From positions 1 through 33,883 of the forward strand of contig CAIRGO010000101.1 of assembly GCA_903878115.1 (NCBI GenBank): a stretch of 33,883 bases of DNA. The letters run 5' to 3'. The notes under the pieces are model-generated. The model was given only the letters and a program-made list of their open reading frames with translations. It ran no database searches and was not told the DNA's origin. This stretch comes from Akkermansiaceae bacterium (GTDB taxonomy: Bacteria > Verrucomicrobiota > Verrucomicrobiia > Verrucomicrobiales > Akkermansiaceae). The translations under genes and the position numbers were made by a program. Below, piece after piece: positions 14,523 to 22,131 of the stretch (its first letter is position 1; each line of letters starts with the position of its first letter).

Positions 14523-14559
14523 TATACTTCGCGAGATCAAGAATTGTGATTTTTTACTT

Positions 14560-14775
14560 TGCGCGCCAACGGTGCAAGCACTTGACAGCCCAGCGCATCG
14601 CGCTGGGATTATAAACCAGTCAGTTCAACAAGCCCTGAATGGGCGTAACTCGTCTGTGTGTAAGCATTCCCTGACACCTTTCGCCCAGTAACGAACTTTC
14701 AGCGCTCAAGAAATAGGATGGTCGTTAAACCCAGGGCGTTGCCCGTGAGCTTTCGAATGACTGCACCGTTGGTAC
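14560..14775. repeat. REP-like palindromic repeat island
   Basis: This noncoding stretch in the 365-bp gap (14523-14887) is bounded by an 11-bp inverted pair, CCAACGGTGCA (14566-14576) and TGCACCGTTGG (14762-14772). Inside are short palindromes: CCCAGCGC-ATC-GCGCTGGG (14589-14607), GCCC-TGAAT-GGGC (14632-14644) and GGGC-GTT-GCCC (14734-14744). Clusters of such G/C-rich hairpins resemble REP/BIME elements, often mobilised by RAYT transposases. No transposase is nearby. The imperfect outer bases suggest an old, degenerate copy. Confidence 0.6.
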
Positions 14776-14870
14776 GTTTGATTAAAAAACCCCAACACAT
14801 AGAATTCCAGTTACTGCGAAAACGCAGACAAATTTACGTCATCATTTTCACAAATTGTTATGCTCGTCAG

Positions 14871-14903: not shown

Positions 14904-16603
14904 GCTCTCATTCGATAAAAGCCTTTGGGTAGATTGGTGGGAACTGTGGCGTTTACTTGTTGCCCCGTTGCGATGATGTTTTCATAACCTGCGAGCAAAT
15001 TCCACGTTCCAGAAAGGTCTGACTGTGTTTCGAGCGCATAGTGCCGCGTCTTGCCAAAGTAACCTGATCCTGTCGCGGCTCTGGCCGTGAAGGAAATTTG
15101 AAATTGTTCAAGCGCAGGTGTCACTGTCGTGAGTAGCGACGATTGCGCAACAAGGGGAGATGTGCCGTAAATATATTCGTTGATGTTGGTGATATTATCG
15201 CCATCGGGATCGGCTGCATCACCTGAAATGGCATAGTTCGCAAGCTGAGTAGAGTTGAAAAATGCATTTTTCCACGTGGTCAACAAAGGCTGGACTGTAA
15301 CAACGGCGGTCGCTGAATTGGCACCTGTGACGTTAGCGCTGTTAGTTACTTTTACCCAATAGTTCGTACTGATACTGAGTGCCGGGGTGGTGAAGATGTT
15401 AGAGTTGCTTCCCACAGAAATGCCTGTGTTCGGGCTATCGCCCTGATACCACTGGTAGCTAAATGGCGCGGTGCCAGATGCTGTCACGCTGAGTTGCGTG
15501 GTCTCTCCCGCATTGATGGTCACACTAGTTGGTGAACTGGTAATGGCAGCAGGTTGATTCACTGATACGGTAGCGAGGGTTGAAATAGCCCCCGTTGGAT
15601 TGCTGGCATTGGTGACTTTAACCCAATAGCTTCTATCAGTAGTGAGAGGCACTGTGGTATATGTCGATGCGTTAGTTCCTATAGGTAATGTGGTATTATT
15701 GAGCGGCCCCTGAAACCACTGGTAGGTAAAGGGCGCTGTGCCTGCTGCTGTCACGCTGAGTGTGGCCGTGCTGCCACTGTTGATCGTCGTTGAGACAGGA
15801 TTGGTGCTGATGCTTGCTGGGGTTCCAGAACTGATGCTTACTGTTGCGGTGTTTGAATTAGCGTAAACTGAATTTAATGTTGCCATGGTGCGGGTGACTT
15901 TTACCCAGTAACTGGCAGCAGTGTTAAGGGTGGGCGTGGTAAAAGATGCGGAGTTGGTTCCGACAGGCGTTGTTATCGATGGTGACGTTCCCTGATACCA
16001 TTGGTAGCTAAATGCACCAGTGCCATTTCCCCGGGCCGCGCTCACGCTCAGGGTGGTGGTGCTACCAGAATTGATTGAGATAGAGGCGGGATGTGTGGTG
16101 ATCACCGCTACCGGGTCATAATTGATGGTAAAAGTATCTTCTCTGAAGTTGTCACCATCACCTGCTCTGACAGTAATTGGAGAGATACCTGTAGCTGTAG
16201 GAGTGCCCGCAATGGTTGCATTTTTCATGTTCGAAGTTGATCCCTTGATCGTCACTCCTGTCGGTAATGAACCAGCGGAAATCAACCAGAAAGAAGGCGT
16301 ATATATTCCACTAATGGTGATACCCATACTCATCGGACTACTCATAGCGGCATTGTAGGATGCGGAGCTAGCATTGGGAAAAAGCTGAGTGATAGTAGTG
16401 GCTCCTGCCACTGTATCATAAGCCCCCAATCCGGCGACCGTGGCGATGCCTAGAGTTACGGTGTCGAGCACACCCGCTGTGCCTAACACTTTTGCTTCGG
16501 GTAACAACATCTGGATCAGCGGTGATCGTTGGAATAGAAGAATGAGAGAGCTGCATTTTGAGAACAATTGTTTCAGTTTTTTGATGATGTGTTTCGTTTT
16601 CAT
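14888..16603 (-). CDS. Ig-repeat exported protein with putative FMN-attachment motif (short paralog)
   Basis: This 571-residue protein is the last gene of the operon. Its first 70 residues are almost identical to those of the upstream paralog: a basic start, LILLFQRSPLIQMLLPEA, a Gly/Ala-rich hydrophobic stretch, and D63-TVAGAT-T69. That motif fits the ApbE flavinylation consensus except for Ala at the usual Ser/Thr position. A putative-Ig (He_PIG-like) domain follows (about 75-165), then three Ig-like repeats of about 85-95 residues, each with QW[YF]QG and SYWVKVT. A Ca-loop linker (DPDGDNITNINEYIYG) and a C-terminal beta module (GKTRHYALE) ending RAWLTP come last. I infer a surface or periplasmic scaffold carrying covalent FMN. 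The gene starts 23 bp after the paralog ends. Confidence 0.8.
   Translation of the reverse strand: MKTKHIIKKLKQLFSKCSSLILLFQRSPLIQMLLPEAKVLGTAGVLDTVTLGIATVAGLGAYDTVAGATTITQLFPNASSASYNAAMSSPMSMGITISGIYTPSFWLISAGSLPTGVTIKGSTSNMKNATIAGTPTATGISPITVRAGDGDNFREDTFTINYDPVAVITTHPASISINSGSTTTLSVSAARGNGTGAFSYQWYQGTSPSITTPVGTNSASFTTPTLNTAASYWVKVTRTMATLNSVYANSNTATVSISSGTPASISTNPVSTTINSGSTATLSVTAAGTAPFTYQWFQGPLNNTTLPIGTNASTYTTVPLTTDRSYWVKVTNASNPTGAISTLATVSVNQPAAITSSPTSVTINAGETTQLSVTASGTAPFSYQWYQGDSPNTGISVGSNSNIFTTPALSISTNYWVKVTNSANVTGANSATAVVTVQPLLTTWKNAFFNSTQLANYAISGDAADPDGDNITNINEYIYGTSPLVAQSSLLTTVTPALEQFQISFTARAATGSGYFGKTRHYALETQSDLSGTWNLLAGYENIIATGQQVNATVPTNLPKGFYRMRAWLTP
15290..16112 (-). repeat. Three tandem Ig-like repeats within the short paralog
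   Basis: Three in-frame units of about 255-290 bp, each encoding an Ig-like domain with conserved SVTASGTAPF[TS]YQW and YWVKVT. The first unit is the most divergent and carries a short insertion. Confidence 0.75.
16397..16417 (-). other. Putative FMN-attachment site DTVAGAT (short paralog)
   Basis: These codons encode residues 63-69. ApbE enzymes attach FMN to the final Thr/Ser of D-x-x-[S/T]-G-A-[T/S], so T69 (16397-16399) would be the acceptor. Ala66 replaces the usual Ser/Thr. The position is identical in the paralog. Confidence 0.5.
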
Positions 16604-16626: not shown

Positions 16627-19194
16627 TTATGGTGTTAGCCAAGATTTGATGCGAAAGAATGCGCGATCTTCGGTGCGAGAAATATTGGTGGAGAAAGTCT
16701 GACCGTTGCCTGCGATGTCTGTGACGCCCGGCAATACTTGCCACTGATCGTTAACAAGAGTGCGTGAACTTTCTATTGCGTAGTGGCGAGTCATTCCCTC
16801 GTAGCCGATTCCTGCTGCTTGGCGAGTAGGAAACGAGAGAGTGATTTGATTCTCCTCAATAGCGACGTTGAGCATTGGTGCCGCTTCATTTTGTAAAGGA
16901 TCAGTGCCAAAAATGTATTCATTTTCGTTGCTCATGCCATCGCCATCAGAATCAGCAGCATTGCCAGATATTTCTGCATTTGCCATGGCTGTATCATCGA
17001 AATAATATTGTTTCCATGCTTCATACGGTGCGACTCCTGCGACAACACCGTTTTGCATGCGTAGGGCCGCTTGTGGCGGTGGCGGATTGATGGTAACCGT
17101 GGCGTTGGTGGAGTTCGCACCGATGGTATTTGTTGCATTTGTCACTTTGACCCAATAACTGGTTTCTGCGATCAGAGATGGAGTGGTGAAACTTGCCGAG
17201 TTCGTTCCTACTGGCGTTGTTGAATTACCCGCAAGACCTTGATACCATTGATAGGTAAAAGGTGCCAGACCACCAGCGATGACACTGAGGGTGGTGGTAG
17301 AGTTTTCATCAATGGCGATCGATGCTGGCGGTGTAAGAATCGCAGCGCCATTGGTCACCGTGACAACGGAAGTGATTGAGTTGACACCCTTAGTATTCAC
17401 CGCATTGGTTATTTTTACCCAGTAACTGGTATTAGCTGTAAGTGCGCCACTAGTATAATCGGGAGAATTCGTGCCGACAGGAATCGTGGTGGTGCCAGCT
17501 TTCCCTTGATACCATTGATAGGTAAAAGGAGCTGTGCCTTTAGCCACGACGTGCAACGAGACCGTTCCGCCGAGGCTAACACTGCTGGTCGTTACTGGTT
17601 GGGTGGCGATCGCCGCAGGAACATTGACGGTCACAAAAGCGGTTTGCGAGAAGGCTCCCGCGAGATTGGCGGCGTTGGTTACTTTTACCCAGTAGCTGGT
17701 ATTTGCTGTGAGTTTTGGGGTGCTAAATGAGGCTTTCGCACTAACGGGTTTAGAAGTGTCGCCACTTAACCCTTGATACCATTGATAGGCTAACTTCGCC
17801 GTTCCTCCACCAGCCACTAACAATTTGGCACTTTTTCCACTGAGAATGGTCACAGACTGCGGTTGAGTCACGATGCTTGCTGGTTGAATCACACTCACCG
17901 CAGCGGCTTTGGAAATGGCTCCTACGTTGTTCACTCGATTGGTTACCTTCACCCAAAAGCTGGTGTTGGCAGTGAGTGGATCTGAGGTAAACGAGGGTGA
18001 GTTTGTCCCCACTGGCTTGGTGATGATGCCGCTGGCACCTTCATACCACTGGTAAGTGATCGGCTGCGTGCCCGATGCTACTACGGACATAGTAGCGCTT
18101 GTTCCAGTTCCTACAGAGGAGGCCGCGGGTCCCGTAGTGATCGCGGCGGGAAGTAGAATTGCCACCGTGGCGGTACTGGATAAAACACCCTGAGGCCTGC
18201 CAGTATTCGTGACTTTCACCCAATAACTGGTGAGTGTTGCTAGTTTGGGTGTGATGAATGTAGCTGAATTGGTGCCAACAGGAGTGGTGGTAACGCCAGA
18301 TATTCCTTGGTACCATTGGTAGGTGAACGGTGCTGTGCCCGAAGCAGTGACAGAAAGTGTCGCCGTTCCGCCGCTACTGGTGGCGGTGGATTGTGGTTGC
18401 ACATCGATCACAGCAGGTTGGACGATGGAAATGTTAGCTGTGTTCGAATTTACCCCTGCAGGTGTCAGCGAATTGGTCACCTTGACCCAGTAACTGGTAT
18501 CCGCTATGAGCGCCGGAGTGGTGAAGGTGGGGGAATTGGTACCGACAGCTGTGCTGGTGTTGCCTGAAGTTCCTTGATACCACCTGTAGGTAAACGGAGC
18601 GCTGCCGCTAGCAGTCACGCTGAGAGTAGTGGTGCTTCCGCTAGCAATGCTGGAAGATGCGGGATGGCTCACGATGCCTGCTACGGGCGGCGGCGCTATG
18701 GTGATGGTGAACGAGCCAGAAGCAAAACGCCCGCTGAACCCCGAGTTTTCCCATGCTTTGATGGTGATCGGAAAATTGCCAGTCTGCGTAGGTATGCCCG
18801 AAAGCGTGGTTGATTTACTGGCTCTGTTTACTAGGGTTAATCCAGTGGGGAGAGTTCCCGTAGAAATTTGCCATGATCCAGGCGTATGACCGCCTGCGCC
18901 GACAATTTGAAATACTCCGTTCAATTGCACTCCAGAGCTCGCTGGAATGGTGGCCGATCCGGATGACGGCGAGACTTGACTCACCAAGGTGGCTCCCGCA
19001 ACCGTATCGTAGGCACCGAGTCCTGCGACGGTGGCAATTGTCAATGATACGGTATTCATGACCCCTGATGTGCCTAACACATTTGCCTCGGGTAAGAGCA
19101 TTTGGATCAAAGGTGAACGCTGGAAAAGTAAAATTAATGAGCTGCACTTTGAGCAGAAACGTTTTACAGATTTGAGTATTTTTTGTGATTTCAT
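16627..19194 (-). CDS. Ig-repeat exported protein with putative FMN-attachment motif (long paralog)
   Basis: At 855 residues, this is the larger of two tandem paralogs. The N-terminal 70 residues (LILLFQRSPLIQMLLPEA, then GLGAYD63-TVAGAT69) match the paralog nearly residue for residue without gaps, whereas the domains after them diverge. A putative-Ig domain spans about 85-168 (LSGIPTQTGNFPITIKAW). Six Ig-like repeats of about 88 residues follow (about 171-705), each with YQWYQG-like and SYWVKVTN motifs. A Ca-loop linker (DSDGDGMSNENEYIFGTDPL) and a C-terminal beta module (GYEGMTRHYAIE) ending KSWLTP close the protein. It starts 32 bp after the DUF4266 gene. I infer that ApbE from the same operon flavinylates T69; the electron partner is unknown. 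Confidence 0.82.
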   Translation of the reverse strand: MKSQKILKSVKRFCSKCSSLILLFQRSPLIQMLLPEANVLGTSGVMNTVSLTIATVAGLGAYDTVAGATLVSQVSPSSGSATIPASSGVQLNGVFQIVGAGGHTPGSWQISTGTLPTGLTLVNRASKSTTLSGIPTQTGNFPITIKAWENSGFSGRFASGSFTITIAPPPVAGIVSHPASSSIASGSTTTLSVTASGSAPFTYRWYQGTSGNTSTAVGTNSPTFTTPALIADTSYWVKVTNSLTPAGVNSNTANISIVQPAVIDVQPQSTATSSGGTATLSVTASGTAPFTYQWYQGISGVTTTPVGTNSATFITPKLATLTSYWVKVTNTGRPQGVLSSTATVAILLPAAITTGPAASSVGTGTSATMSVVASGTQPITYQWYEGASGIITKPVGTNSPSFTSDPLTANTSFWVKVTNRVNNVGAISKAAAVSVIQPASIVTQPQSVTILSGKSAKLLVAGGGTAKLAYQWYQGLSGDTSKPVSAKASFSTPKLTANTSYWVKVTNAANLAGAFSQTAFVTVNVPAAIATQPVTTSSVSLGGTVSLHVVAKGTAPFTYQWYQGKAGTTTIPVGTNSPDYTSGALTANTSYWVKITNAVNTKGVNSITSVVTVTNGAAILTPPASIAIDENSTTTLSVIAGGLAPFTYQWYQGLAGNSTTPVGTNSASFTTPSLIAETSYWVKVTNATNTIGANSTNATVTINPPPPQAALRMQNGVVAGVAPYEAWKQYYFDDTAMANAEISGNAADSDGDGMSNENEYIFGTDPLQNEAAPMLNVAIEENQITLSFPTRQAAGIGYEGMTRHYAIESSRTLVNDQWQVLPGVTDIAGNGQTFSTNISRTEDRAFFRIKSWLTP
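17084..18684 (-). repeat. Six tandem Ig-like repeats within the long paralog
   Basis: Six in-frame units of roughly 265 bp encode Ig-like domains. Shared DNA blocks such as the YQWYQG and SYWVKVTN codons recur in every unit, so this stretch could change repeat number by recombination. The repeats are similar but not identical. Confidence 0.8.
18988..19008 (-). other. Putative FMN-attachment site DTVAGAT (long paralog)
   Basis: These codons encode residues 63-69, with T69 (18988-18990) as the inferred FMN acceptor. The motif differs from the ApbE consensus only by Ala at the Ser/Thr position before Gly, and it keeps the essential Asp, Gly, Ala and Thr. Confidence 0.5.
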
Positions 19195-19226: not shown

Positions 19227-19454
19227 TTAGTTGCAGCCGCAGCCACCGCCGCCTACGCCACCACCGCCAAAGCTGGCTTCGCGCGAAAAATAAGCATGCT
19301 CGGTCATGGCTTTTAGCAGGGGATCACGATCATTGCTCATGAGCGGATTTGCTAGATTGCCGCGTTCATAGGGCTTCACCCGCACCAGTTGTTGCGTGCA
19401 ACTAGAGAAGGATAAAACGATTGCCGTTAGTCTGAAAAGAGTGAGTGATTTCAT
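19227..19454 (-). CDS. DUF4266 small lipoprotein
   Basis: This is a 75-residue lipoprotein with a signal ending LSFSSC (lipid-modified C19). The mature part has VKPYERGNLANPLM and HAYFSREASFGGGG, and the C-terminus is GGGGVGGGGCGCN. I recognise the V-x-P-Y-E-R-G...L core and the Gly-rich CGC-N tail as DUF4266, a family found next to DUF3570 and ApbE genes. The function is unknown; a C-x-C pair in a flexible Gly tail could bind a metal or be a substrate of the neighbouring thioredoxin. It starts 4 bp after the TlpA-like gene ends. Confidence 0.85.
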   Translation of the reverse strand: MKSLTLFRLTAIVLSFSSCTQQLVRVKPYERGNLANPLMSNDRDPLLKAMTEHAYFSREASFGGGGVGGGGCGCN

Positions 19455-19458
19455 AGTT

Positions 19459-19947
19459 TTATTTTCCTAACAGTTCTTCAATTTCTTTGCTGTATTCGGC
19501 TTCTGTTTTGGCACCTTTAAACCCTTGATGAATGTAGCGAATTTTTCCTGTGCGATCTACGAGATAGCTCGATGGCATGGTGGGTGGATTGAAAAACCCA
19601 GCCGCCTTGTGTTGCGCATCGTGAACAAGAGTAAAGTTGACTTTATTTTTTGCGGCAAATGCTTGGTATTTCGCAGCATCTTCATCGACACCGATCCCGA
19701 TGATCACCAGTCCTTTGGCGCCGTATTTTTGCTGCAAGTTTGACATGGAAGGAAATGATGCTTTGCAAGGACCACACCACGAGGCCCAAAAATCTACGAG
19801 CACCACTTTTCCGGAAGTGTTAGGCAGCGCTGCACCCGGTAATAGTCCGGAAAGTTTTGGCATTGACGCGCCGACAGCAGGTTGACCTGCGGTGGCTAGG
19901 GATAAACTAAGGCAACCGGCGATGAATAATTTGATAATGTTTTTCAT
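19459..19947 (-). CDS. TlpA/ResA-like periplasmic thioredoxin
   Basis: The 162-residue protein has a Sec signal peptide (about 1-20, LFIAGCLSLSLATAG) followed by one thioredoxin fold. The active site is W57-C58-G-P-C61 and the cis-Pro loop is TMPSSYL (P125). KVVLVDFWASWCGPCKASFP is typical of TlpA/ResA-type extracytoplasmic disulfide reductases. Within this operon it may keep the cysteines of the DUF4266 protein or another partner reduced. It starts 26 bp after the ApbE gene. Confidence 0.92.
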   Translation of the reverse strand: MKNIIKLFIAGCLSLSLATAGQPAVGASMPKLSGLLPGAALPNTSGKVVLVDFWASWCGPCKASFPSMSNLQQKYGAKGLVIIGIGVDEDAAKYQAFAAKNKVNFTLVHDAQHKAAGFFNPPTMPSSYLVDRTGKIRYIHQGFKGAKTEAEYSKEIEELLGK

Positions 19948-19973: not shown

Positions 19974-20945
19974 TTAGGCAGCTTGAACTTGTTTGCGGAT
20001 AAAGTTTTTGGTTTTTTCGACACTCTGTTCGTCTTGAACACAGGCATCAAGTTGTGGCGCACAGTTGGCATAATGCAGACCTTCTTTTTTGCCCAGCACG
20101 AAAATGCAGGTAGCGTAAATGCCAGCCATGAGGCAGGTGGGTGCGGTCACTGTCACTGCATGCAATCCATTTCGCACTGGCCATCCTGTGCGTGGGTCGA
20201 TGATATGGCCGTAGGTCACGCCATGGTGCTCGAAGCGTCGCGCATAATCGCCCGATGCGCAGACCGCAAATCCGGATACCGCCAAGCCGCCGATGCATTT
20301 GTCATGCTGAATGCCATCCTGAATGCCGACATGCCAGAAGGGATGAATGCCATTTCCGCCGATGCCGAAAATGTCACGCCCGAGGTCGATGAGTGCATCC
20401 ACAATGCTATGGCGCACAGCGATTTTCACCAATTGGTCAACAGCGTATTCCTTACCAAAACCGCCAAAATCTAAGCCCATTCCTGCATGGGGTAAAAAGA
20501 TCGCGTTAGCGCGACGTTGCACTTTTCCCCAACCGGTGAGCCGCAGTGCTTCATTGATCGCAGTTGTAGCAGGAAGCTCAGTATGAACTTTTTTCCAATC
20601 CCAGACCTGCAATAAAGGCAACATACTAGGATCGAGAATGCCTTTTGTTAGATGAAACATATCATCGGCAAGATCTAACATAGTCGCCATTTCTTGATCG
20701 ATGGTGACCCATTCGTGACCTGCTGCTTGATTGATTTTTGAAACGAGCGAGTCAGCGCGGAAGCGCGAAAATTTCGCTTCAAAATCCCCAAGCCAGCCCA
20801 ACGCATCTGCGAGGAATAATAGTGATTTTTTTTCATCCTCGCAGCGAAATTGAATCACACAAGCAGTTCCTAAGGCACGGAAACTCACAGTGCGCACACC
20901 GCGTGCGTCGGGAGTTACCGGAACATAGTTAGGTGATGAAGCCAT
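19974..20945 (-). CDS. apbE: ApbE-family FAD:protein FMN transferase, apparently without signal peptide
   Basis: From the ATG at 20945 (MASSPNYVPV) the protein has 323 residues and family motifs: FRALGTACVIQF near the start, GLDFGGFGKEYAVDQL (about 158-173), DLGRDIFGIGG, ASGDYARRFEHHGVTYGHIIDPRTG-type residues (about 230-253) and a C-terminal MAGIYATCIFVLG. ApbE moves FMN from FAD onto Thr/Ser of target proteins, needing Mg2+. Two features are odd. No signal peptide or lipobox is visible. In the C-terminal A-D-x-x-[AS]-T motif the Asp is Gly (residue 275). An in-frame start at 21014 would overlap the DUF3570 gene by 56 bp and does not add a good signal. The likely substrates are the two downstream Ig-repeat proteins. 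Confidence 0.88.
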   Translation of the reverse strand: MASSPNYVPVTPDARGVRTVSFRALGTACVIQFRCEDEKKSLLFLADALGWLGDFEAKFSRFRADSLVSKINQAAGHEWVTIDQEMATMLDLADDMFHLTKGILDPSMLPLLQVWDWKKVHTELPATTAINEALRLTGWGKVQRRANAIFLPHAGMGLDFGGFGKEYAVDQLVKIAVRHSIVDALIDLGRDIFGIGGNGIHPFWHVGIQDGIQHDKCIGGLAVSGFAVCASGDYARRFEHHGVTYGHIIDPRTGWPVRNGLHAVTVTAPTCLMAGIYATCIFVLGKKEGLHYANCAPQLDACVQDEQSVEKTKNFIRKQVQAA

Positions 20946-20958
20946 GGGGTTAAGAAAG

Positions 20959-22131
20959 TTAAAATTCAGCAGTGAAACCAAATGTCCATATATTGGCGGC
21001 CATGTATGCCTCACTGGGTGCTTGATCCGATCCGATGCCGTTCATTTGGTAGCGTTCATAGGCGGCGGTGGCGGCTACGTTTTCACTGAGTTGATAACGC
21101 ACGCGTAGACCGAGGCTTAAGGCATCTAACGAAGAAAGGCGATAGTCCGCAGAATAGTTAGGCCCAGAGCCAGTGGGGTAGTCAGGCGGATTGGTGATCG
21201 GCACTCCATCCAAAGTATTGTGGAAAAAATTCGCAGCATTTTGGCGATAGTAGCGCGCGAAAGGTGTAATTTCCCATTTTTCACCGAAAGCTTGACGCCA
21301 CTCTACCTGCAGTGTTTGTGAGAATACACCGTAGTCATCGTGCGCTAGGCGCAGAGTGGCGTCCAGTGCTCCGTGAGCGTCTTCAAAAAAATGTGTGCCC
21401 TGCAGTTGTAGCACCTCGCGCATGCGGCTATCGGGCCGATTTTCGGCATAGGTATTAACTACCGGAACCTCGATGAATCCGCCTAAGCCATCGTCAAATT
21501 GAACGATGTCCGTGCGCTGAATCGACTTGTAGGGATCATTTAGATACCCTTGATTGAAGCCAATTGTCAAATTAGCGGTGACGATGGTATTTTTATCGAT
21601 GATCTGAGTGACTCCAGTGAAAAAATCATAGCTCTTTTTATCTTGTGGATCGATGCCATAGACACTCACATCATCGTCCAGATAATTGATTCCGTAGGCC
21701 AAGGTCGTATTCTTTTGATTCAATTCCCACTTATCACTGAGAGCTAGCCCATAAGAAAGATAGTCGCTTTCCTTGCTGCGCGAAATTTCTAACTCCACTC
21801 GGTGATCTCCGAACTGTTGTGAAAGTGCCCCCATAATTCCGGTGCGCACATCTTCTAATTGTTGAAGAAAGGGTTGCAGTCCGCCAGGTTGTGCACCAGA
21901 GGGCGAAGCACCACTGATGGCGTCACGCAGGTATTGAAAACGAAATGAAGTGGATTCTGTTATGTCGATATCCCCGCGCAGATACCAAGACTCTACTGTG
22001 ATGCGGTCACTTTCCTCTTGATAAAGTTGGTAGCTTGTATCGTAGCGTTGGTTTTGTAGGTCGAACGAAAGCTCTGCTTTGCCAGAAGAAGGCCAGAGTG
22101 CGGGAGCAAGTGCGAGGTATTTTGGATTCAT
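20959..22131 (-). CDS. DUF3570 outer-membrane beta-barrel-like protein
   Basis: The 390-residue protein opens the operon. The hallmark is DAISGASPSGAQP near residue 70, preceded by LYQEESDRITVESWYLRGDI, both typical of DUF3570. The rest consists of alternating amphipathic strands (FRFQYLRD, TLAYGINYLDDDVSVYG, ATAAYERYQMNG) and ends in Phe (WTFGFTAEF), as in outer-membrane barrels. The N-terminus (MNPKYLALAPALWPSSGKA) is at best a short, weak signal peptide; an in-frame stop just upstream rules out a longer start. The family function is unknown. A candidate TATAAT -10 box lies just upstream and apbE follows after 13 bp. Confidence 0.85.
   Translation of the reverse strand: MNPKYLALAPALWPSSGKAELSFDLQNQRYDTSYQLYQEESDRITVESWYLRGDIDITESTSFRFQYLRDAISGASPSGAQPGGLQPFLQQLEDVRTGIMGALSQQFGDHRVELEISRSKESDYLSYGLALSDKWELNQKNTTLAYGINYLDDDVSVYGIDPQDKKSYDFFTGVTQIIDKNTIVTANLTIGFNQGYLNDPYKSIQRTDIVQFDDGLGGFIEVPVVNTYAENRPDSRMREVLQLQGTHFFEDAHGALDATLRLAHDDYGVFSQTLQVEWRQAFGEKWEITPFARYYRQNAANFFHNTLDGVPITNPPDYPTGSGPNYSADYRLSSLDALSLGLRVRYQLSENVAATAAYERYQMNGIGSDQAPSEAYMAANIWTFGFTAEF

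Follow-up and report, generated by a model that had tools for sequence, protein, structure and literature searches.

ApbE flavin transferases modify the last Ser or Thr of the motif D-x-x-[S/T]-G-A-[S/T], for which a 7-residue tag is sufficient (PMC12052999). Among the gene clusters that encode these enzymes, the closest to the locus described here are the ApbE/DUF3570 clusters, which, according to the available part of Meheust et al. 2021 (PMC8238504), comprise DsbD, ApbE, DUF3570, a thioredoxin-like protein and DUF4266, in some cases together with a VIT1 iron transporter. The same part of that paper gives DUF3570 as flavinylated by its ApbE, and the authors' count there is that about 4% of ApbE-bearing genomes are without any known ApbE substrate. 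This was the literature found on DUF3570 or DUF4266, while a search on Verrucomicrobia and flavinylation returned only work on another phylum.

The flavinylation cluster in the window

The window, i.e., the whole 33,883-nucleotide stretch of DNA analysed (contig CAIRGO010000101.1 of an Akkermansiaceae bacterium), contains the known DUF3570/DUF4266 protein-flavinylation cluster. Six minus-strand genes separated by gaps of 4–32 nt run in the order DUF3570-ApbE-thioredoxin-DUF4266-P0001-P0002, and Pfam matches are above cut-off for the first four (Table 1). An alternative upstream GTG start for ApbE, at 21014, would overlap DUF3570. P0001 and P0002, the last genes of the run, encode Ig-repeat proteins that share an N-terminal module. 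The preliminary description had raised the question of a neighboring apbE, and the two module genes indeed lie inside an ApbE/DUF3570/thioredoxin/DUF4266 cluster.

Table 1. Features of the cluster and of the shared N-terminal module, in window coordinates.
Feature	Position	Strand	Basis or content
P0001, 855 aa	16627-19194	minus	module, He_PIG-like domain, six Ig_7 repeats, TSP3-like repeat, C-terminal domain
P0002, 571 aa	14888-16603	minus	module, Ig-type domain, three Ig_7 repeats, C-terminal domain
N-terminal module of P0001, residues 1-69	18988-19194	minus	alignment to P0002; AF2 helices
N-terminal module of P0002, residues 1-69	16397-16603	minus	alignment to P0001
Predicted ApbE site D63-T-V-A-G-A-T69, P0001	18988-19008	minus	conservation in 64 modules
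Thr69 codon of P0001	18988-18990	minus	
Predicted ApbE site DTVAGAT, P0002	16397-16417	minus	conservation in 64 modules
He_PIG-like Ig domain of P0001, residues 70-170, directly after Thr69	18685-18987	minus	sequence and structure matches
DUF3570 protein	20959-22131	minus	PF12094, 5.7e-69; from a family shown by experiment to be ApbE substrates
Flavinylation motif DAISGAS in DUF3570, residues 70-76	21904-21924	minus	
ApbE flavin transferase, no signal peptide seen	19974-20945	minus	PF02424, 2.3e-65
Exported thioredoxin/TlpA-like protein (WCGPC)	19459-19947	minus	Redoxin, 2.5e-21
DUF4266, small lipoprotein-like gene, C-terminal CGC	19227-19454	minus	PF14086, 4.9e-21

Compared with the clusters of Meheust et al. 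2021 (PMC8238504), all four established genes lie directly upstream of P0001, and DUF3570 retains its DAISGAS motif. Unlike those clusters, the window operon showed no DsbD gene. Conversely, neither the N-terminal module nor an Ig-repeat partner is named in the available part of that paper. Promoter and terminator scans gave results at chance level.

A separate element lies between P0002 and a Mur ligase gene. This non-coding stretch (14540-14860) contains imperfect terminal inverted repeats of 27 nt (14566-14592 / 14746-14772). Several other contigs of the same genome carry partial matches to it, about a dozen in all, with 72–90% identity. It is recognizable as a dispersed, MITE-like repeat.

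Sequence and constraint of the shared module

P0001 and P0002 are homologous over their full length, although far more loosely outside the module, which takes up residues 1-69 of the interval 18985-19194 (codons 1-70 of P0001, minus strand). The two N-termini had been described as aligning without gaps over residues 1-70 and as nearly identical from KCSSLILLF to GAYDTVAGAT, and this was borne out: residues 1-69 align without gaps, with 54 of 69 positions identical overall, 47 of 53 over residues 17-69 and 7 of 16 over residues 1-16. The domain right after is divergent, as had also been claimed (38/91 identical over residues 70-172), with the refinement that it is a divergent He_PIG-type Ig domain rather than an unrelated one. 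Identity in the C-terminal ~135 residues is 54/133. The excess of identity in the module over the next domain has a Fisher p of about 5e-6.

At the codon level, half of the identical module residues (27/54) are encoded differently in the two genes, with dN of about 0.17 and dS of about 1.8–2.3. Because synonymous sites are near saturation, the identity is a product of purifying selection, i.e., of long-term selective constraint. The same near-saturated dS rules out gene conversion or recent duplication as its source. Constraint is concentrated in two blocks, residues 17-37 and 53-69, which are separated by a loose stretch at 38-52.

Residues 1-69 gave no Pfam or NCBIfam match at E up to 1, which rules out a known domain of either collection as their identity. 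In addition, profiles of FMN_bind, DUF2271 and DUF3570 did not match the module in any of 64 members, and sequence and fold searches of the PDB matched only the Ig-type domain after the module. AF2, run on the 64-member alignment, predicts helices at residues 2-26, 28-37 and 43-67, with an Ig-type domain beginning at residue 70. The layout was reproduced when a distant member led the alignment, and pLDDT values of about 55–85 in the helical part make its packing unreliable. Thr69 falls at the joint of the last helix and the first Ig strand of the model, and the domain beyond is of He_PIG type by sequence with Ig folds by structure.

Conservation among relatives was assessed with 69 modules that are <80% identical to one another. 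The conserved positions, in window numbering, are L20, L23, Q25, R26 and P28, together with a C-terminal block that reads L59-G60-A61-[YFV]62-[DHN]63-[STA]64-[VL]65-[AS]66-G67-A68-[TS]69. Residue 69 is T or S in 69/69 of these modules. On a maximum-likelihood tree of 64 modules, G67 and A68 undergo 0 changes and residue 69 undergoes 3, from Thr to Ser only, while the adjoining residue 70 changes 32 times. The fourth motif position is A in 46 of the 64, S in 15, V in 2 and T in 1, and the first is D in 46/64, including the window. A relaxed form of the motif arises in about 0.1% of shuffles of the first 79 residues.

Forty loci had been fetched with a pattern containing GA[YF]D[STA]V[AS]GA, and a recount used the 37 members found by homology only. 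In this set, G and A are each present in 37/37 and residue 69 is T in 36 and S in 1, which rules out recruitment as the cause of GAT invariance. Conservation of D does not hold there, since the first position is D in 19/37, H in 10, N in 7 and Q in 1. Thus, the DxxxGAT motif of the preliminary description keeps its core and loses its universal D: the true invariant is GA[TS], within a pattern better written as [DNH]xx[AS]GA[TS].

A few natural departures from the motif were seen. In L111 (5743-6129; L012 is the same gene), the module gene directly following DUF4266 is short and truncated and its motif has decayed to DSVPGVT, and a second module copy in that genome (L110) retains DSVAGAS. At L079/L109, two module genes lie in tandem and one copy has AYSAATN in place of the GAT motif (Gly to Ala). 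Similar strings also occur further along these proteins: in L034, L060 and L043, Ig_7 repeats downstream of the module contain strings resembling DPVSGATSASF or PVAGAT, which fit the ApbE motif fully or nearly so. These are probably coincidences of repeat drift, although some may represent extra flavin sites. For this reason, the motif alone is not proof of an ApbE site.

Distribution and linkage to DUF4266

A profile composed of the module and the first part of the domain after it was run against 388 Verrucomicrobiota genomes. Twenty-six matched, one of them (G270) in the Ig part only, which leaves 25 genomes with the module. DUF4266 was detected in 42 of the same 388 genomes, and the module is present in 25 of these 42 and in none of the 346 DUF4266-negative genomes (Fisher p 1.7e-28, a value made optimistic by genome relatedness). 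As far as tested, the module is limited to one class of Verrucomicrobiota: it is found in 25/26 DUF4266 genomes within the class and in 0/16 outside it. Named records with the module include Prosthecobacter, Verrucomicrobiaceae, Akkermansiaceae and Opitutaceae assemblies. Other phyla were covered by one genome-collection scan with a narrow pattern and, given that narrowness, the module may be more widely distributed among them.

Outside the class, DUF4266 clusters lack the module, so the core system can do without it, a point that counts against the flavinylation reading. A replacement protein was sought in these 16 clusters, and none was consistently present downstream of DUF4266. The sole in-class DUF4266 cluster without the module (L127, 4828-9519, from G054) continues with a long protein that begins with what looks like an ordinary signal peptide and has a heme-type CxxCH motif close to that end. 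This protein may be a cytochrome in place of a flavin protein.

Physical linkage was scored for 64 non-identical module genes, each with 3.5 kb or more of sequence upstream. DUF4266 is in the fetched locus for 59 of the 64, and in 50 it lies within 1 kb upstream on the same strand. Three loci (L040, L045 and L046) have the altered order DUF4266-module-DUF3570-ApbE, and thus the association of the module with DUF4266 survives rearrangement. Four others (L088, L089, L106 and L110) have no cluster gene at the locus, and their genomes hold the cluster elsewhere.

A predicted flavinylation site at the end of a probable leader

The best explanation for these observations is that the module is probably an N-terminal helical leader with an ApbE flavinylation site at Thr69. 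Features expected of an ApbE substrate that were found for the module are a Ser/Thr at the attachment position, a preceding G-A, and apbE in the same cluster or genome. The window sequence DTVAGAT departs from the published consensus at the fourth position only, where A stands for S/T. The DUF3570 proteins of related clusters follow D[AST]I[SATV]G[AS][ST]P (DSIAGATP and DTIAGATP are examples), and 11 of 57 likewise have A at the fourth place, so the strict published consensus is too narrow for this clade. The module and DUF3570 therefore obey almost the same local rule. Because the strict consensus has [S/T] at the fourth position, the module is termed a predicted substrate and not a member. 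As for the first position, the literature disagrees on how strongly D is required: it is described as essential for the Vibrio cholerae ApbE (PMC10722498), while a D to A change in a Klebsiella target had a minor effect (PMC12052999).

Several points count against flavinylation: the A at the fourth place in the window, the lack of D in 18/37 homology-found relatives, the cytosolic look of ApbE when P0001 and P0002 look exported, and the fact that AGA|T satisfies the signal peptidase I rule too. The earlier suggestion of a leader merged with a cofactor site is partly supported, by the linkage to the apbE cluster, the confinement of the module to genomes with that cluster, and the invariant GA[TS], and needs correction as regards the non-universal D and the fourth-place A.

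Mechanistically, the cluster ApbE would link FMN via its phosphate to the hydroxyl of Thr69, which would place the flavin at the C-terminus of the second hydrophobic helix, immediately before the first Ig strand. Once targeted to the cell envelope by the leader, the protein would be either anchored there or cleaved at Thr69, and the flavin would lie at the base of its long rod of Ig repeats. From there, it could exchange electrons with the flavinylated DUF3570, the thioredoxin or the CxC protein DUF4266. Flavinylation would precede export, the cluster ApbE being signal-less.

With respect to the site of modification, cytosolic ApbEs exist, according to a review. The cluster ApbEs for which the N-terminus was available begin with a short polar tail in which no signal peptide is apparent, whereas the second ApbE of the window genome (MIKRVAIIGIFVVVFVLLLWRA...) has an N-terminal hydrophobic segment. 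This difference suggests that the cluster ApbE may act in the cytosol on preproteins. The second ApbE and an adjacent membrane protein with two FMN_bind domains, encoded on contig C263 at about 74700-77000 (L134, L136), form a separate classical flavinylation pair.

The end of the module also resembles a cleavage site. Residues 50-68 have the look of a signal-peptide h-region plus c-region, and by inspection an n-h-c layout fits at A68|T69. Signal peptidase I calls for a small residue at -3 and Ala at -1, a rule that the [ASVT]-G-A before Thr69 fits (AGA|T), and it is not known to require Gly at -2 or Thr/Ser at +1. Within the N-terminal 172 residues, conservation is highest over residues 53-69, with 59% mean identity compared with 33% for residues 70-172. 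The thioredoxin signal peptides of the same clusters, used as a control, show the reverse, with 22% identity against 53% in the mature part. A plain signal peptide is disfavored by the constraint on Gly at -2 and on Thr/Ser at +1, which cleavage is not known to demand, and by a leader end that is better conserved than the domain that follows. The module had been described as other than a standard signal peptide. This holds for its 50-residue extension and unusual conservation, but residues ~50-68 are signal-like and end in a small-x-Ala site.

The flavin and cleavage readings could be combined in a special form of the best explanation, one that is possible but on the whole unlikely. Here, a cytosolic ApbE would flavinylate Thr69 on the preprotein, and cutting at A68|T69 would yield a mature protein that starts with flavinyl-threonine; alternatively, the flavin would block cleavage and the leader would serve as a membrane anchor. 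It is consistent with the short polar tails of the signal-less cluster ApbEs, with a motif that fits both patterns, with an Ig-type domain that starts at residue 70, and with the finding that flavin tags work best at protein termini (PMC12052999). On the other hand, Sec export of a flavinylated chain is only presumed, and a missing signal peptide does not prove a cytosolic enzyme. As a tentative proposal, the module would be an export-leader flavin carrier, in which a signal-less ApbE modifies Thr69 of the preprotein in the cytosol, at the would-be cut, and the Ig rod reaches the envelope bearing FMN at, or close beside, its new N-terminus.

Rather doubtful, too, is the view that reduces the module to a long, conserved signal peptide (n1-h1-n2-h2-c layout), with GA|T as a signal peptidase I site and no flavin. 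Most relatives have K/R at 50, then ~12 hydrophobic residues, a polar residue, [ASVT]-G-A, and a folded domain from 70. Hydropathy over 11 residues peaks at 49-59, and no strong 19-residue transmembrane stretch is present (best 1.35 and 1.61), which is signal-like rather than the mark of a strong anchor. A parallel is available in the extended signal peptides of autotransporters, which are long conserved leaders with internal domain organisation, two hydrophobic stretches and a large passenger (PMC2805444). Unlike in autotransporters, conservation in the module peaks at the GA[TS] end and at QRxP, and the module is tied to the ApbE cluster. Nor was a C-terminal beta-barrel translocator found, as the proteins scanned have only Ig-type and TSP3-like domains. 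Such a leader would account neither for an invariant Gly at -2 and Thr/Ser at +1 nor for the strict link to the ApbE cluster, and ordinary signal peptides from these clusters show little conservation. A further view, in which the module stays uncleaved as a membrane hairpin or helix-packing element, either tethering the rod or binding some membrane partner from the cluster, and bears no flavin, is improbable: it draws on the AF2 helices to residue 67 and on QRxP and GLGA conserved outside the GAT core (GLGA and GA being helix-packing residues), yet the model has low confidence scores over the module, and a T/S-only residue 69 beside a freely varying residue 70 is left unexplained.

If the predicted flavinylation of Thr69 is correct, the module has both likenesses to and differences from known ApbE substrates. 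Like FMN-bind (PF04205), NqrB/RnfD, DUF2271, Flavodoxin_4 and FMN_red, as presented in the available parts of PMC8238504 and PMC11334425, it combines a short [S/T]GA[S/T]-like site with apbE linkage, and the FMN site of NqrB/RnfD is likewise in a membrane protein. Unlike those substrates, residues 1-69 match none of the families, have no flavin-binding fold of their own, and occur in a leader-then-Ig context. The module is therefore probably an undescribed class of predicted ApbE substrate within a known cluster.

The module offers a testable second predicted substrate in the DUF3570/DUF4266 cluster and ties that cluster to large Ig-repeat envelope proteins in Verrucomicrobiota. It also raises the question of flavin attachment before export. 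If the export-leader flavin carrier is real, it would constitute a class of substrates that lack their own flavin-binding domain, in which flavinylation may be coupled to export.
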